Assembly (NCBI GenBank): GCA_902826635.1
Contig: CADEFQ010000012.1
Span: 7,019-71,018 of the forward strand
From: an uncultured Pseudomonadota bacterium
Lineage (GTDB): Bacteria; Pseudomonadota; Gammaproteobacteria; Steroidobacterales; Steroidobacteraceae
DNA length: 64,000 bases
Direction of reading: 5' to 3'
Positions 19,864 through 59,677 of this stretch are shown here, in pieces. Every line of letters starts with the position of its first letter. Within the stretch, counting starts at the first letter, position 1. Below the pieces are notes generated by a model. That model was not told the origin of the DNA and searched no databases. It was given only the letters and a program-made list of their open reading frames with translations. The position numbers and the translations under genes were made by a program.

Positions 19864-20886
19864 ATGAGTCACACACAGTACGAGACGGTGCCGCTCACGC
19901 GCGACGAGATCTCGCTTTGCGTGGTCCAGTCGCGCGTGCGCGCGGTCGACGTCAAGAACCGGGATGCGGGCGTCGCCGAGAACCTGGCGCACATGCTGGG
20001 CCTGATCGACGCCGCCAACGGCTGGCTCGGGCCGAAGGACCTCGTGATGTTCCACGAGTTCCCGCTCACGGGTTTCGACGCGCGCTGGCGGCGCGAGGAC
20101 CTGCTCAAGGTCGCAATCGAAATCCCGGGCCCCGAGACCGAAGCGATCGCGGCGCGCGCCAAGCGCTACGGCTGCTACGTGGTGTTCGGCTCGTACGCGC
20201 GCGATCCGGCCTGGCCGAACCACATCCTCTCGATCACGACGATCATCGATCGCGAGGGCAAGATCGTCGGCCGGCACTGGAAGGCCCGCAACATCAAGGG
20301 CCTCTTCGGCGGCGCGTTCGAGATCTTCACGACGACGATCTACGATGCGCTCGACCAGTACGTCGAGATGTACGGCGCCGAGGAAGCGGTACCGGTCACC
20401 CGCACGCCGATCGGCAACCTCTGCACGACCTCGACACAGCTCGAGCCCGAGATCATCCGGGCGTTCGCGCTGCGGGGCGGCGAGATCATGCTGCGCACCG
20501 CGACCGGCGGCTTCGACGAGTACGACATTCGCGCGAACGCGCGCTACAACCAGATGTATACGGCGATCGCGAACAATGCGATCTCCCCCGGCAACCCGGG
20601 CTCGTTCGACGACATCAGCTCGGGCGGCAGCGCGATCTACGGTCCCGACGGCGCGCAGCTCGCAAAGGCAAACTCGGCCAACGAGGGCCCGGTGGTTGCG
20701 CGCATCCCGATCAAGGCGTTTCGCGAGAAGCGGCGCCTGCCGAACATCCATCCGTCGCTCTACAAGGATCTCTACGCGAACTACGTCGAGACCTTCCCGC
20801 CGAACCTCTACACGCATTACCAGCCAACCGACGGGCGTGATGCCGCGCGGTATCTCGCCGACCGGAGCCTCTGGAAGAAGGGATGA
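19864..20886 (+). CDS. Nitrilase-superfamily carbon-nitrogen hydrolase (amidase-like)
   Basis: Cytosolic C-N hydrolase of the nitrilase fold, 340 aa, close in size and layout to aliphatic amidases and formamidases. The Glu-Lys-Cys triad is visible: Glu65 in MFHEFPLTG, Lys140 in GRHWKARN and Cys187 in IGNLCTTST. EIPGPETEAIAARAKRYGCY matches the helix between them. No signal peptide is present. It follows the membrane protein by 19 nt and precedes the HutX-like gene by 4 nt. A Tat-exported paralogue at 58478-59677 has Ala at the Cys position. The substrate is unknown; a small amide or nitrile is likely. Confidence 0.85.
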   Translation: MSHTQYETVPLTRDEISLCVVQSRVRAVDVKNRDAGVAENLAHMLGLIDAANGWLGPKDLVMFHEFPLTGFDARWRREDLLKVAIEIPGPETEAIAARAKRYGCYVVFGSYARDPAWPNHILSITTIIDREGKIVGRHWKARNIKGLFGGAFEIFTTTIYDALDQYVEMYGAEEAVPVTRTPIGNLCTTSTQLEPEIIRAFALRGGEIMLRTATGGFDEYDIRANARYNQMYTAIANNAISPGNPGSFDDISSGGSAIYGPDGAQLAKANSANEGPVVARIPIKAFREKRRLPNIHPSLYKDLYANYVETFPPNLYTHYQPTDGRDAARYLADRSLWKKG

Positions 20887-44763: not shown

Positions 44764-47064
44764 ATGCGGTCACGCGGAAAAATTTCAAAGAGCATTGGTA
44801 TTTCACTGACATTGTGTCTCAGCACGTCGGGCGCAGCGCTGGCGCAGTCGGCGGGCGATGCAGAACAGGGGGTACTCGCCGAAGTCACAGTCACCGCCCA
44901 ACGGCGCAGTGAAAGCCTGCAGAGCGTGCCGGTGGCCGTGAGTGCGTTCGATCCCGCCGCGCTCGATGCTCATCAGGTGCTCACGCTGCGTGACGTATCG
45001 AACGTCGTGCCAAACCTGTGGATGGAGACCAACACTGGCCTCTCGAGTGGCTCACGCGCCGCGCTGCGTGGGGTCGGTGAGGACGAAAGCTTCTTCACTT
45101 CTGACCCGCCGGTTGGCATCTATATCGACGACGTCTACATACCGCGCCAGACGGGCGCTTTGTTCGACCTGTACGATGTCGAGCGCATCGAAGTGCTGCG
45201 CGGCCCGCAAGGCACGCTCTACGGACGCAATACATCCGCGGGTGCGATCAAACTCGTCAGCGTCAAGCCTTCTCCGGAGCGCCGCGTCATGGCGGAACTG
45301 ACGGGCGGCGATTATGGCCGCTTCGACGCGCGAGCGAGCTTGTCGGGCGGGTTGTCGGAGCACCTGTCGGGTCAGCTCGCCGCGCTTTCGCGTCAACGCG
45401 ATGGCTACGACAGAAACCTGGTGGATGGCTCGCGCGTCAACGACCAGGATATTTTCTCGTGGCGCGCTGCGCTGCGTTACCAGCCATCGGAGACGCTCGA
45501 CATTCTGCTGTCTTTCGACCAGAGCCGTGAGCGCTCGACGCCAGGCTATGCGACCGGCGTACTGCTTCAGCCGCCCGGCGGTCTCGGGCCATGGAATCCT
45601 GACCAGCAGTACGACGGCGACACGAACGTGCACACACTGCGCTCGGACCTGCTTGACCCGCAGAATGATCTCGACCAGCGCGGCGGGAGCGTCAACATCG
45701 GTTGGGAGCTTGGCGACGCGACCCTGCGCTCGATCACGGCGTGGCGTGGCCTCGACAACACGCTGCTCCTGGATGCCGACGGGCAAGACACCTGCTTCGG
45801 ACTCGCGCTACCTTGCCTGCACCTGTACCAGGACCAGAGCCAGGATCAGTTCAGCCAGGAGCTGCAGCTGCAGGGCAAGGCTTTCAGCGACCGGCTCGAC
45901 TACGTCGCCGGTGCGTACTATTTCACCGAATCGAACTGGCAGCGCACCGAGAACATCATCCTCGCGCCGTTTGGCACCAATCCGTACTTCGACACTTCGC
46001 TCGACACCGATAGCATCGCGCTCTTTGGCTCGGCGACCTGGGCCGCGACGGAACGGCTCAATCTGACAGCCGGTGTGCGGTGGACCAGGGATTCAAAGGA
46101 TTTCGGATCTGCGGTGTTCGAGGCTTCCGGTGCCGCGCAGCAAGTGTGCGTCTCGGCAGATCACACACAAGTTTACTCGGCCGGGCCTTGCACGATCGGA
46201 TCGCCGGTCGGCGCGACTACCGATCGTCTTTCGCGCCGCTTCGATCAGTCTTGGTCGAAAGTGACGCCACGAATCGCGGCCGACTTCCAGCTGAACGACG
46301 ACGCAATGATCTACGCCTCGATCAGCACGGGCTTCAAGTCGGGCGCGTTCGACGGCCGCGAATCGAGTACGGCGCTCTACACGCTACAGCCGATCGCACC
46401 CGAGACGACCCAGTCTTATGAAGTCGGCGGCAAGGCCGAGTGGTTCGGCCGGCGCCTGCGCACGAACCTTGCGCTTTTCATCAATGAGATTGATGACCTG
46501 CAGGGCACGGGCACGAACGTGGTGACCAATACCTTCACCCGGTTCTCGGTGGGTGATGCCGAGACCCGCGGCGCCGAAATCGAGATCACCGCAAAGCCCA
46601 TCGCGCCACTGACGCTCACTGCGTCGGTCGGCCTTCTCGACACGAAGTACACGAAGATCAACTTCGACCAGGTCGTCGATTGCGGGCCGGTCGGCACGGG
46701 TACCACGGACCTCCAGCTCAAGTTCTCGCCGAAGGTCTCATCGTTCGTCGGCGCCGCGTGGCGCGTGCCGGTCGCCGCACTGAGCGGCGAGGTCGAGATT
46801 GGTGGCGACTGGACTCACAAGAGCAGTTATTTTCACAGCTCGTGCAACCCGGTGCCCAGCAAGGAAGACGGCTACAATCTCTTTAACGCCCAGATCGCTT
46901 TCGAGTCCGACGATGCGCGCTGGCGGATCGCCGCCGCCGTGCGCAATCTCGGCGACGAGGACTACTCGACGGGCCAGTTTTTTATTCCCGGACTCGGCTT
47001 CGACGCGATCTATTTCAACCCGCCGCGCAACTGGTCGATCACGGCACGCTACACGATCAAATGA
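44764..47064 (+). CDS. TonB-dependent outer-membrane receptor
   Basis: 766 aa. Signal peptide (ISLTLCLSTSGAALAQ), TonB-box-like region (VLAEVTVTAQRRSESLQSVPVAVSAF), then a plug domain (LTLRDVSNVVPNL ... VGIYIDDVYIPRQTGALFDLYDVERIEVLRGPQGTLYGRNTSAGAI). A 22-stranded barrel follows, ending in NWSITARYTIK. The plug is typical of catabolic receptors in sphingomonads and related bacteria rather than siderophore receptors. The ATG lies seven bases after AAGGAG inside a predicted hairpin. The next gene, an amidohydrolase, starts inside the receptor's stop (ATGA). Ligand unknown. Confidence 0.92.
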   Translation: MRSRGKISKSIGISLTLCLSTSGAALAQSAGDAEQGVLAEVTVTAQRRSESLQSVPVAVSAFDPAALDAHQVLTLRDVSNVVPNLWMETNTGLSSGSRAALRGVGEDESFFTSDPPVGIYIDDVYIPRQTGALFDLYDVERIEVLRGPQGTLYGRNTSAGAIKLVSVKPSPERRVMAELTGGDYGRFDARASLSGGLSEHLSGQLAALSRQRDGYDRNLVDGSRVNDQDIFSWRAALRYQPSETLDILLSFDQSRERSTPGYATGVLLQPPGGLGPWNPDQQYDGDTNVHTLRSDLLDPQNDLDQRGGSVNIGWELGDATLRSITAWRGLDNTLLLDADGQDTCFGLALPCLHLYQDQSQDQFSQELQLQGKAFSDRLDYVAGAYYFTESNWQRTENIILAPFGTNPYFDTSLDTDSIALFGSATWAATERLNLTAGVRWTRDSKDFGSAVFEASGAAQQVCVSADHTQVYSAGPCTIGSPVGATTDRLSRRFDQSWSKVTPRIAADFQLNDDAMIYASISTGFKSGAFDGRESSTALYTLQPIAPETTQSYEVGGKAEWFGRRLRTNLALFINEIDDLQGTGTNVVTNTFTRFSVGDAETRGAEIEITAKPIAPLTLTASVGLLDTKYTKINFDQVVDCGPVGTGTTDLQLKFSPKVSSFVGAAWRVPVAALSGEVEIGGDWTHKSSYFHSSCNPVPSKEDGYNLFNAQIAFESDDARWRIAAAVRNLGDEDYSTGQFFIPGLGFDAIYFNPPRNWSITARYTIK

Positions 47065-48476
47065 TGGATATACCCGAGTTCATTATTCGTGACGGCACCG
47101 TGCTCACCATGAACAGTGGGCGCGAAAGCTTCGAATCCGGTTTCATCTGGGTAAAGGGCGAACAGATCTTTCGCGTCGGAGACGTGTCCGAACTGGGCGA
47201 TGTGCCGGCGGGGGTCAGCATCACCAGCGCACGCGGCAGGTTGATCATGCCGGGGCTGGTCAATGCCCACGGCCACCTTTCAAATGGCGTCCTGCGCGGA
47301 ATCTATGACGAGATGCCGCTCAGTGTGTGGTTTTCGAAGGGAATGTGGCCGGTGCTGGAGGCACTGGATGCAGAGACCGGCATGGCGAGTGCCGAACTCG
47401 CGCTGATGGAACTGATGACCACCGGAGTCACAACCACGGTCAGCGCGGAGTTCGGCACACCCAGACGGGAGCTTCCGGACGCGGTGCTGACGGCCGTGCG
47501 CAAGTCGCGCGTGCGTGCGCTCGTCTCGCGGATGACGATGGACAATCCGGATGAGTCCGACCCGTCCCAGGCGGTTCCGCCCGCGTATCGTGAATCGGTC
47601 GCGCAGGCCGTATCCGAAGTCGAGCGCCTGCAGCGGGAGTATCGATCGGCGCTCGTGACCGTGGCCCCGGAGGCGCTCGGTGTCCTGCGATGCACACCGG
47701 AGATGGTATCGGGACTCCATGACCTCGCAGTGCGTAGCGACTCACCGTTCCTGATGCACATCGCGAGCTCGAGAGACGAGCATGAGTCGAGTCACCGTTT
47801 GTTTGGACATGGCAGTGTCACGGAACTGAAGCGCCGCGGTGCGCTGTCCGGGCGCACTTTGCTCGCGCACGCCATTTGGCTCGACGACGCCGAGATTCGG
47901 GACGTCGCGGCGGCCGCCACCGGGGTCTCCCACAATCCAGTCGCCAATGCCTACTATGCATCCGGTATCGCGCGCTTGCCGGAACTGCTTGCGGCCGGCG
48001 TGCGCGTCGGACTCGGCGTCGACGGGGCTTCGACCAACAACAGCCAGAATCTGTGGGAGACGATGAAGATGGCGCTGCTGTTCCAGAAGGAGCGTACGGC
48101 TGACGCCGGCTTCGGCTCTGCCGAATTGGCTCTTGAGCTGGCGACTCGCGGCGGCGCGGCCGCGTTGCACATGGAAGACCGGATCGGTTCGCTCGAGCCG
48201 GGCAAGCAGGCAGACTTCATTTCGATCGATACTGCGCGTACCGCGCTCGCGCCGCGTCAGACTCTCATTTCGAATCTCGTGTATTCGAACGATCCCCTGG
48301 CCGTCAGAGATGTCTACGTGGCCGGAGAGGCGGTCGTGGTCAATGGCGTGCATCGCTTTCTTGAGCGGGACGCGGTTTTGATGGCCGCCAATCAGGCGCT
48401 CGGGCGCATTCTGGAGCGATCCGGATTGAAGTCGTACCTCGAGTCACGGTCCGGCTGGCATTGGAGACGGTCATGA
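47061..48476 (+). CDS. ATZ/TRZ-type amidohydrolase (MTA/SAH deaminase-like)
   Basis: 471-aa cytosolic metal-dependent hydrolase. Motifs in order: IMPGLVNAHGHLSNGVLRG with metal His70 and His72, FLMHIASSRDEHESSH, LLAHAIWLDDAEI with a metal His, GVSHNPVANAYYASG and the metal Asp in VGLGVDGASTNNSQN. It ends IGSLEPGKQADFISID. All ligands are present, so it should be active. The family deaminates or dechlorinates ring amines (S-adenosylhomocysteine, guanine, triazines). The ATG lies inside the receptor stop, so uptake and hydrolysis are coupled. Next gene also ATGA-linked. Confidence 0.88.
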   Translation: MMDIPEFIIRDGTVLTMNSGRESFESGFIWVKGEQIFRVGDVSELGDVPAGVSITSARGRLIMPGLVNAHGHLSNGVLRGIYDEMPLSVWFSKGMWPVLEALDAETGMASAELALMELMTTGVTTTVSAEFGTPRRELPDAVLTAVRKSRVRALVSRMTMDNPDESDPSQAVPPAYRESVAQAVSEVERLQREYRSALVTVAPEALGVLRCTPEMVSGLHDLAVRSDSPFLMHIASSRDEHESSHRLFGHGSVTELKRRGALSGRTLLAHAIWLDDAEIRDVAAAATGVSHNPVANAYYASGIARLPELLAAGVRVGLGVDGASTNNSQNLWETMKMALLFQKERTADAGFGSAELALELATRGGAAALHMEDRIGSLEPGKQADFISIDTARTALAPRQTLISNLVYSNDPLAVRDVYVAGEAVVVNGVHRFLERDAVLMAANQALGRILERSGLKSYLESRSGWHWRRS

Positions 48477-49162
48477 GACGCAGGCACTATTCGGGAGTCA
48501 TCGAGGCGATCGGCGACTCAAAGGGCCTGCGTGGACTCGAGCGGTTCTCGGTTTCCGTCGCCCCCGACGGGAGTCGCACGCTGCACGCCACCTGCGAGAT
48601 CTACGACCGCAACGTGTCGAAAGACATCGTCTATTCGGTCGACCGTGACTTCCGGCCCATCGATTCCTATGTACGCCTCATCAAGGACGGCGCACTGCTC
48701 GGTTCGGGGCGCTTCCAGTTTGACGGCAACGGAGCCGGCCTCGAGTGCGACAGCCGTGTACTGGGTCACGTCGCGCAGCGCATCGATCAGCGGGGTGGAT
48801 TCCCGAGCTTCGGCCCGCACCCGCTCACTTGCGACATCTGGCACCTCGCGCGCTACGACCATGACAGTGGCGTGAAGGTGCAGTACATCGATTCGGCGCT
48901 GAGTTCGCTCGAGCACGACGGCTGTTCGGGACCCATGCTGCATCCGATCAGGTTCGGAATCGAGTTCCTCGGCCCGAAGACGATTACCGTGCCGGCGGGC
49001 ACTTTCGAGACTCACCACTATCAGTTTCATCTCGAAGGCAGCCTCCCGCAGGAGCACCCGCTCGAGCAGCTTTGGTGCATCCCCGGCGACTTCATTTTCG
49101 TGAAGATCCGCGTCGATGGCTACATGTCGACGACCTATCAACTGACCGAACTGGTTCGTTGA
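48473..49162 (+). CDS. Hypothetical protein (229 aa)
   Basis: Starts at ATG 48473 inside the amidohydrolase stop. No signal peptide or membrane helix. It looks beta-rich: LHATCEIYDRNVSKDIVYSVDRDFRPIDSYVRLIKDGALLGSGRFQF, and TVPAGTFETHHYQFHLEG near the end. That last phrase resembles small beta-barrel DUF3108-like proteins, but the match is weak. Position between the amidohydrolase and a 222-aa membrane protein suggests a role in the same pathway. A frame open to 48461 uses TTG and is less likely. Confidence 0.75.
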   Translation: MRRRHYSGVIEAIGDSKGLRGLERFSVSVAPDGSRTLHATCEIYDRNVSKDIVYSVDRDFRPIDSYVRLIKDGALLGSGRFQFDGNGAGLECDSRVLGHVAQRIDQRGGFPSFGPHPLTCDIWHLARYDHDSGVKVQYIDSALSSLEHDGCSGPMLHPIRFGIEFLGPKTITVPAGTFETHHYQFHLEGSLPQEHPLEQLWCIPGDFIFVKIRVDGYMSTTYQLTELVR

Positions 49163-49175
49163 GGGTGCCTGCGGC

Positions 49176-49844
49176 ATGACCGGCGTTTACCTGCTGCTCG
49201 TTGTCGCGCACGTCCTCCTCTTCGCGTACTGGCTCGGAGCGGACTGGGGCGTGTACGTTACGTCGCGCTATGTCGCCGATCCGAAACTTTCGCTCGACGA
49301 GCGGCGCCGATTCCTGCAGGCCGCATTCCGCATCGACCTGTTGCCGCGCATCTCGTTCACGATGCTGCTGCCGGTCGGTGTGCAGATTGCCGCCTACTAC
49401 GGCGCCTGGCCGTTTCACGCCGCGTTCATCCCGGCTGTCTGGGTGTTTGCGCTCGCGTGGATGATTCTCAACGTGGCGGGCTACCTGCGAGCCGGCACGC
49501 CCGCCGGCGATCGCATCCGCGGCTGGGACCAGCGCATCCGGGTCGTGATGGCGCCGGTGCTGGTCGGTACCGGGCTGTGGTCCATCTCAACCGGCTATCC
49601 GGTTGCGCCGCTTTTCATCGCCCTCAAGATCACGGTGTTCGGCATCATGATCATCGTGGGCCTCGTGCTGCGCGCGATCATGAAGAACTGGGCGGTGGGC
49701 TTTCGCCGGCTTGCGACCGAAGGGCCGAGTGAGGCCATCGACGTGCTCTTCCAGGGCTCCCTGAAGCGCGCGCGCTTCATCGCGTACTTCATGTGGTCGC
49801 TGTCAGCCGTGATGGCCGTGCTCGGAATCGTGAAGCCCGCGTGA
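49176..49844 (+). CDS. Polytopic membrane protein, 222-aa paralogue A
   Basis: 222 aa with about five or six membrane helices. It shares motifs with the protein at 57788-58456: HVLLFAYWLGADWGVYVTSRY against HVLVMGYWIGSDLVVNALTHY, and the endings VLGIVKPA and YLGVAKPA, both at exactly 222 residues. The WDQRIR (here) and WDWRLR (there) segment precedes a similar helix. I do not recognise the family; CopD-like proteins have a related topology. It precedes an MFS gene whose GTG lies inside its stop. Confidence 0.8.
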   Translation: MTGVYLLLVVAHVLLFAYWLGADWGVYVTSRYVADPKLSLDERRRFLQAAFRIDLLPRISFTMLLPVGVQIAAYYGAWPFHAAFIPAVWVFALAWMILNVAGYLRAGTPAGDRIRGWDQRIRVVMAPVLVGTGLWSISTGYPVAPLFIALKITVFGIMIIVGLVLRAIMKNWAVGFRRLATEGPSEAIDVLFQGSLKRARFIAYFMWSLSAVMAVLGIVKPA

Positions 49845-51121
49845 TCCGTGGCGGTGCCAAAGGATTCACGCGCGGCCAATGGTCGTGGGCGATGGCCGAT
49901 TGGGCGCGCGAGCCGTTTTTCACCATCGTCCTGAGCCTGGTCTTTCCGCCGTACTTTGTCTCGGTCGTCGCCGCGGATCCCGTACGTGGCACGGCCCTGT
50001 GGGGATACGGCCTCGCCACGGCAAGCGCACTCCTGGTGGTCCTGAGCCCCTTTGCGGGTGCCGCGGCCGACAGCACGGGCCGGCGAAAACCCTGGATTGT
50101 TGGCTGCGTCATCGTGGCGGCGGCAGCTCTCGCGAGCCTGTGGGTGGCGACCGGGGCGCCGGGGCGCATCATATGGGTGCTCGCCTCGTGCGCGCTTGCA
50201 CAGCTCGCGATCGAGCTGTCACGCGTATTTACCGACAGCATGGTGCTGCGAGCGGCAGCACGCGAGCGGGTCGGCGAACTCAGCGGGCTTGCCGTCGGGC
50301 TCGGTTTTGCAGCCAGCATTCTGTATATCTGCGCAACGCTGGTCTTCGATGGCGCCAGCGCCCGCACCATTTCGGCGCTGAGCGGCGCATGGCTCGCGGT
50401 GTTCTTCGTACCACTGCTCCTCTGGTGCCCGGACTATCCCGGAGAATTGCGCGGCTGGGCCGCGAGCCGCCGCGACAGCCTCGCGCGGTTGCGCAACTTG
50501 CTGCGCGACCTGGTGCTTGTGCCGCAGGTGGGGCGCTTTCTGCTCGCACGGATGATTTACTGGGATGGCATGATGGGCCTGTTTTCGTTCATCGCGATTC
50601 TCGCGTCTTCGCGACTTGAATGGCGCGCCAGCGAGATCTCCGCGTTCGGCCTGCTGGGCCTGATTGCCGGCGCAGCAGGCGGCATCTTCGGCGGCGTGCT
50701 TGATCGCCGCTTTGGCTCGAAGCGTCCGTTGATGGGAGCGCTCGTGATCATGCTCGCCGTGTCGATCGTCATGCTGATCGAGCTGCCTGATAACAGCGAG
50801 CGCGCGATTGATGCGAAGCTTTTTTCTTCAGCCGGCGACCTGACGTTTCTGTCGCTTGCGATCGTCGCAAGCGCCGGCGTCGGTGCGCTGCTCGCGAGCA
50901 GCCGCTCGATGATGGTGCGCCTCTCGCCGGCCGATCGTCTCGGCGAGTTCTTCGGTCTGTACGTCATGGTGGGTCGGGCGTCGAGCTTCGCGGCGCCATT
51001 GCTGGTCGCGCTCGCCACGACCGCATTTGGCAACCAGACGACCGGCGTGTTCGGCGTCGCGCTCACCTTCATGGCGTTCGGCCTCGTGCTGCTCGGCAGG
51101 GTGCATGAGCCCGCGCGCTGA
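49841..51121 (+). CDS. MFS transporter, UMF1/Atg22-like
   Basis: 426 aa from GTG 49841, which overlaps the previous stop (GTGA). Twelve membrane segments are expected. The start GQWSWAMADWAREPFFTIVLSLVFPPYFVS is typical of the UMF1/Atg22 subfamily, and the cytosolic MFS motif appears as ADSTGRRKPW. Some relatives carry amino acids or drugs, but substrate here is open. A longer frame from 49793 would overlap the preceding gene. The next MFS gene overlaps its end by 17 bases. Confidence 0.86.
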   Translation: MIRGGAKGFTRGQWSWAMADWAREPFFTIVLSLVFPPYFVSVVAADPVRGTALWGYGLATASALLVVLSPFAGAAADSTGRRKPWIVGCVIVAAAALASLWVATGAPGRIIWVLASCALAQLAIELSRVFTDSMVLRAAARERVGELSGLAVGLGFAASILYICATLVFDGASARTISALSGAWLAVFFVPLLLWCPDYPGELRGWAASRRDSLARLRNLLRDLVLVPQVGRFLLARMIYWDGMMGLFSFIAILASSRLEWRASEISAFGLLGLIAGAAGGIFGGVLDRRFGSKRPLMGALVIMLAVSIVMLIELPDNSERAIDAKLFSSAGDLTFLSLAIVASAGVGALLASSRSMMVRLSPADRLGEFFGLYVMVGRASSFAAPLLVALATTAFGNQTTGVFGVALTFMAFGLVLLGRVHEPAR

Positions 51122-52412
51122 GCGCCCGGACGCGCCCTGGCCCACCGCGCGCATCGCATGGAGCGCGGTCGTCGTCCTGACACTCGTCTACTCTATCGCC
51201 TTCGTGCACCGCATCGGTCTCGGGCTGCTCGTCGAGCCGCTGCAGAAGGACCTGCACTTCAGCGACACGGCGATTGGATGGCTCGCGGGTATCCTGTTCG
51301 CGGTGCCGTACACGCTCGGCGGGCCGTTCTTCGGCTGGCTCGCCGATCGGAGCAGCCGCCGCTCGCTGATCGCGATCGCCTCGGCGGGCTGGAGCGCGAC
51401 GACTGCGGCGTTCGGCCTGCTGACGTCCTACCCGGCGCTGGCCGCCACACGCATCGCGGCGGGCCTCACGCAGTCGGCGCTGCAGCCGGCCGCCGCGTCG
51501 ATGATCGCCGACTGCTTTCAGGCGCGCGACCGCTCCCGAGCCTATGGAGTCTATGTCGCCGGCACTGCGTTTGGCACGGCGATCGCGTACTGGCTCGGCG
51601 CCGTTGCGATCGGCGTCGGCGCGCTCATCGCGACGACGACCGGCATGAAAGACTGGTCCGCGGCTTTCCTCGCGCTCGCCGTGATCGGGCTCATCGCGCC
51701 GCTCGCCATGGCGTTCGTCCGCGAGCCCGCGCGACAGGAACGCGCCGGGGAAGCGGCCGCGAACTTGCGCGCGACCTTTGGCTTCATCCGCCGCGAGTGG
51801 CTGGTCGTCGGCAGCCTGAGCCTCGGTGTCGCGATCTGCTTCCTCGCCCCCTACGGCCAGCTCGCCTTCATGCCGGTGATGTTCTCGCGCAAGTACGGCT
51901 GGAGCGCCGGCGAGCTCGCGCTCGTCTACGGCGTGATCGCGGTATTTGCAGGCGGATCCGGCTCGGTGCTCGGTGGCTGGATCTCGGCATGGCTCGCGCG
52001 CCGCGGCCGTGCCGACAGCGACTGGATCATCTGCACCGCGGGTTCGGCAGGCAGTCTCGTGACCGGCGGCATCGCGCCGCTGATGCCGACCGCCGAGTGG
52101 AGTCTGTTCTTCTTTGCGCTCTCGGGCCTGTTCACGAACTGGCCCTCGGTGGGCGCGCTCGGCGCGGTGAACCGCCTGGCGCCGAACGAAATGCGCGGTC
52201 AGCTGACGTCGGTCTATACGTCATGCGTGGGTCTGATCGGCGCAGGCCTCGGCCCGGTCGCCATCGGCACGCTGTCCGATCGCCTGCCGACGGCGTGGGG
52301 CGGGGTGTCGGCGGCGATGTCGATCACCTTCTTCGGTTGCGCGGTGCTGTCCTGCGCATTGCTGGCCGTGGGGCAGCGGTCGTATCGCACGCTCGCGGCC
52401 GGACGCACCTGA
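51105..52412 (+). CDS. MFS transporter, Spinster-like
   Basis: 435 aa from ATG 51105, overlapping the preceding gene by 17 bases. Twelve-helix major-facilitator protein with LLVEPLQKDLHFSDTAIGWLAGILFAVPYTLGGPFFGWLADRSSRRSLI, the loop 2-3 motif being DRSSRR. It resembles the MFS at 56420, so it is a probable paralogue. Last gene of the TonB-receptor operon. Direction of transport is not evident: it could import a hydrolysis product or export a metabolite. Confidence 0.88.
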   Translation: MSPRAERPDAPWPTARIAWSAVVVLTLVYSIAFVHRIGLGLLVEPLQKDLHFSDTAIGWLAGILFAVPYTLGGPFFGWLADRSSRRSLIAIASAGWSATTAAFGLLTSYPALAATRIAAGLTQSALQPAAASMIADCFQARDRSRAYGVYVAGTAFGTAIAYWLGAVAIGVGALIATTTGMKDWSAAFLALAVIGLIAPLAMAFVREPARQERAGEAAANLRATFGFIRREWLVVGSLSLGVAICFLAPYGQLAFMPVMFSRKYGWSAGELALVYGVIAVFAGGSGSVLGGWISAWLARRGRADSDWIICTAGSAGSLVTGGIAPLMPTAEWSLFFFALSGLFTNWPSVGALGAVNRLAPNEMRGQLTSVYTSCVGLIGAGLGPVAIGTLSDRLPTAWGGVSAAMSITFFGCAVLSCALLAVGQRSYRTLAAGRT

Positions 52413-52506: not shown

Positions 52507-55122
52507 ATGAAAGCCATCAGGCGAATTGGAATTGCAGTCGCAGCGCTGACGATCGGAATTGGACCGGCAGCCGCCCAGGAGGCTGGCGATGTTGCGGCGG
52601 AGGAGTCCGCCGGCGCACTCGAGGAGATTCTCGTGTCAGCGCGCAAGCGCAGCGAGACGCTGCACGACGTGCCGCTCAGCGTCTCCGCGTTCTCGTCCGA
52701 CCAACTCGCCGCGATCGGCTTTCGCGGCCTAGAGGACGTCGCGCTCCGCACGCCCGGCCTGATGTTCTCGCAGCAGGGTGGTGCGATCCCGGGCCGCTAC
52801 AACTGCGCGATCCGCTTCCGCGGCATGAACGTGTCGTCCGAAATGCCTTCCTATCAGGTGGGTGCACTGTTTATCGATGGCGTCTATGCGCTCTCCGGCT
52901 GCAACAGCCTCGGCGCCGAAGACATCGAGCAGGTCGAAGTCATCAAGGGCCCGCAGGCGGCCTATTTCGGTCGCAATACCTTCGGTGGCGCGGTCAACTA
53001 CATCACACGCAGACCGCGCTCCGAGTTCGACATGAAGGCGTCCGCTGATATCGGCACCGAGGACGACCAGGAGTACCGGCTTTCGATTGAGGGTCCGGTC
53101 GTGGGCGACCATCTTGCCGGACGCGTGACGGGCCGTTTCTACGACAAGGGTGCGCAGTACATCGCATCTGACGGCGGCAACCTCGGCGCCGAGAAGACGA
53201 GGTCGATCGGCATTTCGCTCGCTACCGATCCGACCCGGACGCTCAGCGCGCGCTTTCGCGCTTTCTACTCGGAGGACCGTGACAGCGCGCCGGCGGGCGG
53301 CTTCATCTCCGGCACATTGTTCGATTCGTGCTCAGGGACCATCGGCCCGGACGGGATGGTGAGGGGACGTTACTTCTGCGGTCGAATTCCAAGCCGCGCG
53401 TCAATGGGTCCCGGCTTCATCAGCAGCAATACCTCGCTCGATCCACGCGGCTTTTCACCGGACCGCCCCAACTTCCTTTACGACGCGCTCGTCAACAACA
53501 GCTGGACGCTGCCCATCGGCGCTGCCAATCCGACCTCGGACCCGGCGCAGGATGGCGCGCTCGCGAGCGACTTCTTCGGCCTGAAGCGCAATGCGTTCCG
53601 CATTAGCGCCAGCGCGCGCTATGAACTGCCGAACGGCTGGGCGATGACTGCAGTCGCCGCGCGTAACGAGCTTGCGGCCACCTGGATTCGCGACTATGAC
53701 CTGACGGATGTCGAGGTTTGGTGGTCACGCGACCCGCAGGACATGCGAGACACCAGCTATGAGCTGCGCCTCCAAGCACAGTCGGGCCGCCTCGACTGGC
53801 TCGCCGGCGTCTCATACTACGAGCAGGAGTTCACCGGTAACGGTGGAGGCGGCACAAGCGTGACGCGGTTTCCGACGGCCACCGGTTTCGTGCCCCAGGT
53901 CTTCACCAACGGCCTGAACAACAATGACGAGATTCGCAACATCGGCGTTTTCGGCGGGCTTACTTACGCGCTCAACGACCAGTGGAAGCTGTCGCTCGAG
54001 GGTCGCTATCAGACCGACGAGATGATCAAGGGCCAGGTGGCCGCCGAGCAGAGCAATCTACCGGCTGCGAAGCAGAAATGGGAGACGTTCCTGCCGCGCG
54101 TGATCCTGCAGTGGGAGCCGGACGCGGCCAACAATATCTATGCGTCGTTCTCGCAGGGCGTGTTGCCCGGCGACATCAACGCGAGTTATGTGTTCGGCAC
54201 GGCTGGCATGCGCAGTGCGCAGGAAATCGCGTCGCTGCAGCAACAGGTCCGCGAGGGCGTGGCGGATCGCCCCGACCTCGGCGTCCCGGGAGGCACCGAT
54301 CCGATCAGCGGCGTCGACATCTTCATCGACCAGGAAGAGATTCAAAGCATCGAGCTCGGCTGGAAGCGACAGTGGTTGAACGGGCGGGTGCAGACCGGCC
54401 TCGCGTTCTATGCGATGGAATGGGACAACCAGAAGGGCGGCGGCACGCGCTATGTCATTGACTTCAACGGTGGCACCGGCAATCCGTATGTCGCCGACAA
54501 TCCCGCGGCCTGCGCGGGCCAGCCGAAACCGAGCGCGCAGCCGGGCGGGCTCTTCTGCGACGACGTTCTGCGCTCGATCAGCGTGAAGTTTCCGGGCTCC
54601 TCGCGACTCAAGGGAATCGAATTCGACGGGCGCTGGGCAGTGACCGACAACCTGACCGTCGACGGCGGCATCGAGTGGAACGACAACGAGTACACAGCGT
54701 ACACCGTGAACATCGTAGAGCCGATCGCGGGTACGAACGACATGACCGGCAACCGCACGCCGCGCTATCCGGAATGGAAGGGTAATGCCGCCGTGACCTA
54801 CAACGGCGTGCTGCCATGGAGCGACGCGAGCTGGTACACGCGCGCCGACTTGACTTACATCGGCCCGTACTTCATCGACGAATCAAACCTCGCGACCGCG
54901 CCGTCGCAGACGCTCGTCGGCGCGCAGTTCGGAGTGCGGTGGGACAAATTGCGCCTCGAGCTCTACGGTAAGAACCTGACCGACGAGGACAACTGGGCCG
55001 CCGCGTCGCGCTGGTCCGACTTCACCATTCCAGGCGTGTTCTTGTTCTCGGTAAACCAGGGCGCGTCGGTGTCGCCGCAGCCGCCCCGGCGCTTCGGCAT
55101 CCGCCTCACCTACGAATACTGA
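52507..55122 (+). CDS. TonB-dependent outer-membrane receptor
   Basis: 871 aa. Signal peptide (GIAVAALTIGIGPAAAQE), TonB-box region (LEEILVSARKRSETLHDVPLSVSAF), plug domain (FRGLEDVALRTPGLMFSQ ... VGALFIDGVYALSGCNSLGAEDIEQVEVIKGPQAAYFGRNTFGGAVNYITRRP) and a barrel ending PPRRFGIRLTYEY. It shares the general design of the first receptor but is not a close copy: barrel loops are longer. The next gene is a Sel1-repeat protein starting 27 bases later. Ligand unknown. Confidence 0.92.
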   Translation: MKAIRRIGIAVAALTIGIGPAAAQEAGDVAAEESAGALEEILVSARKRSETLHDVPLSVSAFSSDQLAAIGFRGLEDVALRTPGLMFSQQGGAIPGRYNCAIRFRGMNVSSEMPSYQVGALFIDGVYALSGCNSLGAEDIEQVEVIKGPQAAYFGRNTFGGAVNYITRRPRSEFDMKASADIGTEDDQEYRLSIEGPVVGDHLAGRVTGRFYDKGAQYIASDGGNLGAEKTRSIGISLATDPTRTLSARFRAFYSEDRDSAPAGGFISGTLFDSCSGTIGPDGMVRGRYFCGRIPSRASMGPGFISSNTSLDPRGFSPDRPNFLYDALVNNSWTLPIGAANPTSDPAQDGALASDFFGLKRNAFRISASARYELPNGWAMTAVAARNELAATWIRDYDLTDVEVWWSRDPQDMRDTSYELRLQAQSGRLDWLAGVSYYEQEFTGNGGGGTSVTRFPTATGFVPQVFTNGLNNNDEIRNIGVFGGLTYALNDQWKLSLEGRYQTDEMIKGQVAAEQSNLPAAKQKWETFLPRVILQWEPDAANNIYASFSQGVLPGDINASYVFGTAGMRSAQEIASLQQQVREGVADRPDLGVPGGTDPISGVDIFIDQEEIQSIELGWKRQWLNGRVQTGLAFYAMEWDNQKGGGTRYVIDFNGGTGNPYVADNPAACAGQPKPSAQPGGLFCDDVLRSISVKFPGSSRLKGIEFDGRWAVTDNLTVDGGIEWNDNEYTAYTVNIVEPIAGTNDMTGNRTPRYPEWKGNAAVTYNGVLPWSDASWYTRADLTYIGPYFIDESNLATAPSQTLVGAQFGVRWDKLRLELYGKNLTDEDNWAAASRWSDFTIPGVFLFSVNQGASVSPQPPRRFGIRLTYEY

Positions 55123-57787: not shown

Positions 57788-58456
57788 ATGACTGCTTATA
57801 AATTTGCGCAATGGATGCACGTGCTCGTGATGGGTTACTGGATCGGCAGCGACCTCGTTGTCAACGCGCTGACGCACTACACCGCGCGAGCGTCCGGCCT
57901 CTCGGGCGCGGAACGCAAGCGGCTCTGGGATTTCCTGCTCGACGTCGACCAGCATCCGCGCAACGCGCTGATCTTCAGCGTGCCGCTCGGCCTCACGTTG
58001 GCGTCGATGCTCGGTCTCGTGGCCATTCATGGTGCTGGGCTCGTGGCTGTGTGGGTGCTGTGCGCGGCGTGGTTCTGGTTCATGTGGTTGACCCACTGGA
58101 AGCGTGACGCGCCGACCGGTCGCACATGGGCGAAATGGGACTGGCGGCTGCGCTATGTGCTGATCGCCGCCGCGGTCGGAGTCGGGCTCTGTTCGCTGAT
58201 TGCCGGCCGGCCGTTTGCCGCGCCGTGGCTCGCGTGGAAGGTGCTGCTCTTCGGCGGCGTGCTCACCTGCGGCATCGGCATCCGCTACTACATCAGGAAG
58301 TCGTACGCGGCGTGGCCGCGCATCTGGGCGGAAAAGGCCGAACCGGGCGACGAAGCGATCGTGCGCGCGGCGATGTGGCACGGCACCTATGTGCTGTGGA
58401 CGCTCTGGGCACTGCTCGTCGTCATCGGCTATCTCGGCGTTGCGAAGCCGGCGTAA
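57788..58456 (+). CDS. Polytopic membrane protein, 222-aa paralogue B
   Basis: 222 aa with about five or six helices, paralogous to the 49176 protein: same length, YWIGSD near the start, WDWRLR before a helix and LGVAKPA at the end. It has extra His and Trp residues (WFWFMWLTHWKRDAP, WHGTYVLWTLWALL). No known family was recognised. In both copies the gene lies next to an MFS gene, here 30 bases downstream, so a joint function with the carrier is plausible. Its end is convergent with the Tat nitrilase-like gene. Confidence 0.8.
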   Translation: MTAYKFAQWMHVLVMGYWIGSDLVVNALTHYTARASGLSGAERKRLWDFLLDVDQHPRNALIFSVPLGLTLASMLGLVAIHGAGLVAVWVLCAAWFWFMWLTHWKRDAPTGRTWAKWDWRLRYVLIAAAVGVGLCSLIAGRPFAAPWLAWKVLLFGGVLTCGIGIRYYIRKSYAAWPRIWAEKAEPGDEAIVRAAMWHGTYVLWTLWALLVVIGYLGVAKPA

Positions 58457-58477: not shown

Positions 58478-59677
58478 TCAGCGGCCCGTCCGTCGCTTCA
58501 GCAGCGCGCCCGCCTCCCCGTAGTCGTTCGGCAGTTCCTCGAGGAAGGCGTTCGGTTTTACTGAAGGCTCATATTGCTGAAAAACCGGCAGGAACAGCGC
58601 CATCGGGTACTCGGCCGGTGCGCGTGTCCGGCGAAAATCCGCGATCGGAACGCGCGCCGTCACGATGTCTTCATGGTGGTTGGCCGAGGCGGCAAGCGTC
58701 GCGCCGCGCGGGTCGACAATCACGGTGCCGCCGTCGCGCGCGCCCACCGCTTCCGTGAAGCCCGGATTGTCAGGCGAAACCGAGTTGCCGACACCCACGC
58801 AATACGTTCGCGTCGTGCGAGCCGTCTGCGTAGCCTGCTCCGAGTTCGAAGCCCCGGTGACCGTGAGAATCAGGATCTCCGCGCCCTTCATCGCGAGTGC
58901 CTGGTAGAGCATGGGCTCGAGGCCCACCGCCGTCGTGGCGATGTTGCCGATGTCGGTGCGCGCAACGGGCAGCGTCGCATCCCAGCCGTACAACTCGACG
59001 TAGCGATCGAGCACGTCGTACACGGTCGTGCCGATGAGCCCGATGCCACCGAAGGCGCCAAGGATGTTGCGCGCCTTCCATTGCTTGCTGACGATGTCGC
59101 CCCCCGGCCCGACGATCACCGACATGTTGATGACGTGATTCGGCCAGTCCTTGTCGCGCGCGTAGCAGCCGAACGTGATGTAACAACCGTAGTGTTTCGC
59201 GCGCTCGCCGATCGCCGCCGATTCGGGGCCCGGCAGGTCGAAGGCGATCTTCTGCAGCTCCGCGCGATTCCATGGCTGCCAGCCCTGGATTGGAAACTCG
59301 TGCATGCACAGCAGGTCTTGTTTCGCGCCCCACCGGCGCTCGCCGCCCCATTCAGGAGCCGAGCCCTGTGCGTAGTCGATCAATTTCACGACGTGTGCGA
59401 GATTGCGCTTTGTGGTCGCATCGCGGTTCTTCAGGTCGACCGACATCAGTCGCGACTGGATCGCCGAAACATTGATCGAGTCCTGCCGAAGCGGCACGGT
59501 CGCGTAGACACCCTTCTTCATCACCGACACGGCATCACCGGATGCGCGTACCGACGCCGTGTCGGCAGATTGAGCGCCCAGCGCCGCCGGCGCGGCCAGC
59601 GCCCCGAGGCTCGCAATTCCTGCGCCTGCCAGCAGTTCGCGACGGGAAATGGGGTCCGGAGACGACTTGTGCTTCAT
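58478..59677 (-). CDS. Tat-exported nitrilase-fold protein with catalytic Cys replaced by Ala
   Basis: 399 aa from ATG 59677, preceded by GGAG; ATG 59689 has no site. Tat signal: PISRRELLAGAGIASLGALAAPAALGA. The rest is a nitrilase-superfamily domain that aligns with the protein at 19864: Glu127 in CMHEFPIQG, Lys201 in SKQWKARN and then IGNIATTAV where the other protein has IGNLCTTST. The Cys codon position is GCC (58937-58939), so residue 247 is Ala. It cannot use the normal Cys thioester chemistry and is either inactive and ligand-binding or works differently. Convergent with the 222-aa membrane gene. Confidence 0.85.
   Translation of the reverse strand: MKHKSSPDPISRRELLAGAGIASLGALAAPAALGAQSADTASVRASGDAVSVMKKGVYATVPLRQDSINVSAIQSRLMSVDLKNRDATTKRNLAHVVKLIDYAQGSAPEWGGERRWGAKQDLLCMHEFPIQGWQPWNRAELQKIAFDLPGPESAAIGERAKHYGCYITFGCYARDKDWPNHVINMSVIVGPGGDIVSKQWKARNILGAFGGIGLIGTTVYDVLDRYVELYGWDATLPVARTDIGNIATTAVGLEPMLYQALAMKGAEILILTVTGASNSEQATQTARTTRTYCVGVGNSVSPDNPGFTEAVGARDGGTVIVDPRGATLAASANHHEDIVTARVPIADFRRTRAPAEYPMALFLPVFQQYEPSVKPNAFLEELPNDYGEAGALLKRRTGR

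Follow-up and report, generated by a model that had tools for sequence, protein, structure and literature searches.

A predicted Tat-exported nitrilase-fold protein that lacks the nucleophile cysteine and belongs to a conserved Cys-less bacterial clade

Sequence comparison and structural modelling give P0001, a protein encoded by an uncultured member of the Steroidobacteraceae, a nitrilase fold, an export signal, no cysteine at the nucleophile site, a shortened nucleophile elbow, retained Glu127, Lys201 and Glu228 together with a hydroxyl group at position 249, and a history of purifying selection. Descriptions of the nitrilase superfamily present it as Cys-dependent, and its known enzymes use a cysteine. 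The favoured explanation, to which a probability of about 0.4 is assigned, is that P0001 is a periplasmic member of a Cys-less clade whose active site would combine Glu, Lys and Glu with a hydroxyl group in non-thioester chemistry, in a role in uptake and breakdown. The window, meaning the whole 64,000-nucleotide stretch of DNA that was analysed, holds the gene, its paralogue and the following features of the two proteins:

58478..59677, minus strand: P0001, predicted Tat-exported, Cys-less nitrilase-fold protein, 399 aa
59567..59677, minus strand: Tat signal peptide, approximately residues 1-37, motif S-R-R-E-L-L
59297..59299, minus strand: Glu127, equivalent of the catalytic Glu, in an invariant H-E-F-P motif
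59075..59077, minus strand: Lys201, equivalent of the catalytic Lys
58994..58996, minus strand: Glu228, candidate second active-site Glu
58913..58948, minus strand: nucleophile elbow (residues 244-255, GNIATTAVGLEP), remodelled and shorter than canonical by two residues
58937..58939, minus strand: Ala247, variable in-strand position
58931..58933, minus strand: Thr249, site candidate in the helix-anchored register
58925..58927, minus strand: Val251, site candidate in the hairpin-anchored register
19864..20886, plus strand: paralogue, 340 aa, without a signal peptide, Cys-less at the site (Thr189/Thr191; alignments, conservation and tree)

The gene runs from 59677 to 58478 as an open frame of 399 codons, read from the list of open reading frames and their translations. 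Its CN_hydrolase domain matches Pfam PF00795 with E = 6e-11 and 42.6 bits, against a curated cut-off of 23.2, which places P0001 in that superfamily and makes it one of nine CN_hydrolase matches in its own genome. Neither the aliphatic amidase model NF009802 nor the formamidase model NF009803 of NCBIfam matches P0001 at E 0.01, and the paralogue scores far under their cut-offs (50.8 versus 427 and 42.9 versus 406, respectively). The N terminus reads SRRELLAGAGIASLGALAAPAALGA and combines a twin-arginine motif with a weakly hydrophobic stretch (SRRELLAGAG...) that is conserved over the orthologues; R12 and R13 are conserved at 90% or more, Arg13 being invariant in all 50, and residues 1-46 of the AF2 model are of low confidence. 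By these sequence features, P0001 is a predicted Tat substrate and periplasmic. An earlier note on this DNA had recognised a Tat signal on a nitrilase-fold protein without giving the strand, and the motif, the Pfam match and the amidase-like model all agree with it.

The AF2 model, built from 61 alignment rows, reaches a pLDDT of 85.2 and a pTM of 0.84. Among the superfamily structures listed, VIA-align gives Z scores of 25-30, as expected of the alpha-beta-beta-alpha fold, with Z 30 to aliphatic amidases and 28-30 to formamidases; Foldseek returns an E value of about 1e-17. The closest fold is that of AmiE (2uxy; Geobacillus pallidus 4kzf and 2plq), with Z 30 over 277 residues at 2.7 Å for 2uxy and also Z 30 for 4kzf, and the positions of Glu and Lys are shared. 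The AmiE group also contains the nearest PDB sequence relatives, at about 17-19% identity, for which a profile is required; P0001 as a single query finds no match in a PDB sequence search. Unlike AmiE, P0001 has no equivalent of Cys166, an elbow shorter by two residues, a Tat signal and an extra YDxLDxYxExYG segment. The formamidase AmiF (2e2k, 5g3o) likewise shares the fold and the Glu-Lys pair, but its triad is Cys-Glu-Lys, whereas the P0001 family is without the Cys.

Relatives were gathered from 98 related genomes and the GTDB collection, yielding 50 full-length orthologues with at least 57% identity and another 65 members whose identity falls as low as 28%. Glu127 and Lys201 are each present in 50/50 orthologues and in 63 of the 65 others (113/115 in the whole family), as the earlier note had stated for P0001 itself, and Glu228 follows in 49/50 and 58/65 (107/115). 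Judged by position only, Glu228 may be the equivalent of AmiE Glu142. Asn occupies position 245 in all 50 orthologues, 82 positions are invariant among them, and their mean pairwise identity is 68%. With a dN/dS of 0.09-0.12 (Nei-Gojobori, the P0001 gene against five orthologues of the genus), the gene is under strong purifying selection at the sequence level. Such conservation over 50 orthologues, together with the low dN/dS, indicates that the observation is not due to chance. Three relatives (L065, L066 and L067) have lost all three sites, with Glu replaced by Ala, Lys by Gln, and His at 249, and are clear pseudoenzyme candidates; since Glu and Lys disappear there along with the residue at 249, both appear to be kept for use in the main clade.

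In canonical members, the Cys is found at position -6 relative to the Pro with which the next helix begins and, as a rule, at +7 relative to the preceding hairpin Gly. The Gly-to-Pro distance is 11 in the P0001 family, versus the canonical 13, in 116/117 members, the sole exception being truncated, so that P0001 departs from canonical elbow spacing. The residue that substitutes for Cys depends on where the deletion is placed, and is either Thr249 or Val251 (or a deleted position). Three alignments give Thr249: one by HMMER with 2uxy, in which the aligned block was extended without gaps, and two by hhalign, with a set of five AmiE sequences and with a canonical enzyme from P0001's own genome; Thr249 is thereby matched to AmiE Cys166 and to the Cys of L001. 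Four alignments give Val251 or a deletion, including hhalign and MAFFT against the sister E-R-S/E-R-C group, where Val251 falls on Ser or Cys, and the canonical HMM, in which the Cys column is deleted in 67 of 114 aligned members and filled by Val in 32 and by Cys in 6. The modelled strand (244-249) and helix (255-263) are compatible with both registers.

All 50 orthologues have Thr at position 249, where the rest show S49 T12 H2 G1 L1, giving Ser or Thr in 111/115; Val fills position 251 in 49/50 orthologues, and the rest show V33 T21 C6 I3 M1 S1 there. The Glu-Lys-Cys triad is therefore incomplete: Glu and Lys are in place, the Cys site is taken by Thr249 or Val251, and the absence of the nucleophile Cys from P0001 and its paralogue is secure by alignment. 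A small subgroup of six family members (L029, L030, L136, L138, L148, L150) carries Cys at 251, within GN[IV]CISPCKMEPE, and may have kept or regained a nucleophile there.

The earlier note had proposed that Ala247 replaces the nucleophile. The loss of Cys from the site stands, but residue 247 is not that site: none of the seven alignments matches it to a Cys, and the position is open to six different residues (A42 S3 C3 T2 in orthologues; A32 C21 S6 T4 I1 G1 in the rest), so that Ala is not strictly kept among the orthologues. That note would have given up its reading had a nearby residue clearly taken over as nucleophile, and the conserved hydroxyl at 249 goes part of the way. Its comparison with the paralogue holds insofar as Cys187 is indeed present at the equivalent of position 247; however, no alignment puts Cys187 at the Cys site, which in the paralogue is occupied by Thr189/Thr191.

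Nor does the evidence support the paralogue as a Cys-bearing, active counterpart, as both proteins lie in one Cys-less clade. The tree, a quick one whose long outgroup branches call for caution, unites the 82 family rows with an SH-aLRT of 99. The Thr clade containing P0001 forms one branch (97), in which all rows have a twin-arginine-like N terminus. Tat-bearing rows occur throughout the other branch, and the signal-less paralogue group (L045, L057) is nested among them, so that the paralogue is more plausibly a protein that lost its signal than a Cys-bearing original. The orthologues are labelled mostly as Gammaproteobacteria (Steroidobacter, Peristeroidobacter and many MAGs), although some of their record titles, such as 'Klebsiella pneumoniae', apparently belong to mislabelled MAGs. 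Steroidobacter agaridevorans (L131) and Peristeroidobacter agariperforans (L084) carry the gene and are in culture. Alphaproteobacteria, Acidobacteria and Blastocatellia are also among the labels of genomes that hold the 65 further members. In a thin sample across the phylum the family is matched in 5/398 genomes and is thus patchy; a search of viral contigs returned none, and plasmids yielded distant nitrilases only.

The surroundings of the gene contain several transport-related features:

57788..58456, plus strand: 222-aa membrane protein with a largely helical model, its gene convergent with that of P0001
56420..57757, plus strand: MFS transporter (Pfam), adjoining the membrane protein
52507..55122, plus strand: TonB-dependent receptor
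49176..49844, plus strand: another copy from the membrane protein family, 28% identical to the first (tblastn, open reading frame)

The duplicated membrane protein that the earlier note placed beside the gene is thus confirmed. Searches of Pfam and of PDB sequences found no match for the copy at 57788-58456, nor did fold comparison give a confident one, and its model is of modest confidence. Its family occurs in 25/26 related genomes with the nitrilase family versus 3/69 without it (Fisher p 1e-18 by genome and 2e-9 by genus, kinship not being corrected for), and lies near nitrilase-fold genes at several loci (L028, L143, L039) and beside other enzymes too. This unannotated family reaches up to 8 copies per genome and often adjoins catabolic genes. 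The region from 44.7 to 60 kb, with two TonB receptors, an amidohydrolase (47061-48476), MFS transporters, a MarR regulator and both membrane protein copies, looks from its gene content like an uptake and breakdown island. Within it, 44764-52412 presents a consecutive TonB receptor, amidohydrolase, membrane protein and two MFS transporters, itself a likely island of this kind. Receptors of the same cluster as that at 52507 adjoin several orthologues. Open reading frames within 1.3 kb of 37 orthologues include a TonB plug (10), a 2-hydroxyacid dehydrogenase (8), MaoC (6) and a PLP Cys/Met enzyme (4), and no universal neighbour was found in this range. In other members of the genus (L082, L083, L085, L086), the PLP Cys/Met-metabolism enzyme follows the Tat gene in the same orientation, only a few bases away; it is absent from that place in the window.

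According to the favoured explanation, P0001 would act on a small amide- or amine-like periplasmic compound without thioester chemistry. Glu127 would serve as the base and Lys201 as the acid or oxyanion holder, Glu228 would support both, and the hydroxyl of Thr249, or a water held by it, would replace the thiol. The protein may thereby serve the uptake and breakdown of a compound imported by TonB-dependent receptors. Retention of Glu, Lys, Glu and the hydroxyl while the Cys is gone favours an enzyme, as do the catabolic neighbours of several orthologues (TonB receptor, MaoC dehydratase, 2-hydroxyacid dehydrogenase and PLP Cys/Met enzyme) and the up to 10 relatives that some genomes carry, since enzyme families often have many relatives in one genome. 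Against it, Val at 251 could not be a nucleophile if the hairpin register holds, and the neighbours vary between lineages, so that no substrate can be named. By analogy, the engineered Cys-to-Ser mutant of MtCPA also speaks against an enzyme, being strongly less reactive: it loses most reactivity and keeps binding (PMC4812014).

A second reading is nearly as probable: P0001 would be a ligand-binding pseudoenzyme, a binder or sensor whose periplasmic Glu/Lys/Glu pocket takes up an amide, an amine or a carboxylate but does not turn it over. The earlier note's suggestion of a binding, sensing or regulatory role in the periplasm lies near to this. The missing Cys and shortened elbow in every member with an intact stretch are consistent with this, as is Val251 in nearly all orthologues if the hairpin register is correct, and crystals of amidase mutants lacking the Cys do contain bound ligand (glutaramide in 6ypa, C146A; acrylamide in 4izv; putrescine in MtCPA C158S, PMC4812014). 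Against a pure binder, the proton-relay residues are almost fully retained, the neighbours in several lineages are of a catabolic and not a regulatory kind, and a sensor would have no conserved partner to signal to. The kept Glu/Lys/Glu and the conserved hydroxyl slightly favour a working non-thiol site. It is improbable that P0001 is a Cys hydrolase drawing its nucleophile from another cysteine of the fold, such as Cys165, Cys171 or Cys124: Cys165 is present in 50/50 orthologues and 59/65 of the rest, but it precedes strand 166-174 and aligns with a non-triad residue of AmiE, while Cys171 and Cys124 are variable. Simple decay of a formerly active amidase would account for the lost nucleophile, yet it is very unlikely given a dN/dS of about 0.1, the many invariant positions and a single clade spanning many families; the earlier note had likewise argued against decay.

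Natural replacement of the Cys by a hydroxyl with the other triad residues kept has a precedent in cephalopod vanin/symplectin homologues, which carry E-K-S and E-R-S triads and in which the authors think that Ser could act (PMC5541922). Those proteins are animal, with a base domain and Ser at the Cys site, whereas the P0001 clade is bacterial and combines a Tat signal with Ser/Thr (or Val) and a deletion. An E-R-S group in the same genomes (L079:1-909, minus strand, contig C14 of P0001's own genome; rare across the phylum, at 3/299 genomes) resembles the cephalopod E-R-S triads. Like P0001, it lacks the Cys and has a YDVxDxYxExYG...FPVA segment; unlike P0001, it has a canonical elbow, Ser exactly at the Cys site, Arg in place of Lys and mostly no Tat signal. 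In the library searched, nothing relevant turned up on Steroidobacter, Tat-exported or bacterial Cys-less nitrilases. The fold and the two triad residues are standard, and no description was found there of an exported bacterial clade with an elbow that is shortened and lacks the Cys, as read from these sequences.

Because the complete triad was looked for and is absent, neither amidase nor nitrilase is a suitable label for P0001, and the family-level name 'carbon-nitrogen hydrolase' may mislead as to the activity of genes of this family. That the Tat-exported bacterial clade as a whole transforms a substrate through a Glu-Lys-Glu-Ser/Thr site, with a redesigned elbow and non-thiol chemistry, is a more doubtful proposition than the reading favoured for P0001. 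A conserved bacterial clade lacking the Cys, in which strong selection has preserved the remainder of the site, makes the choice between alternative chemistry and reuse of the fold as a periplasmic binder directly testable.
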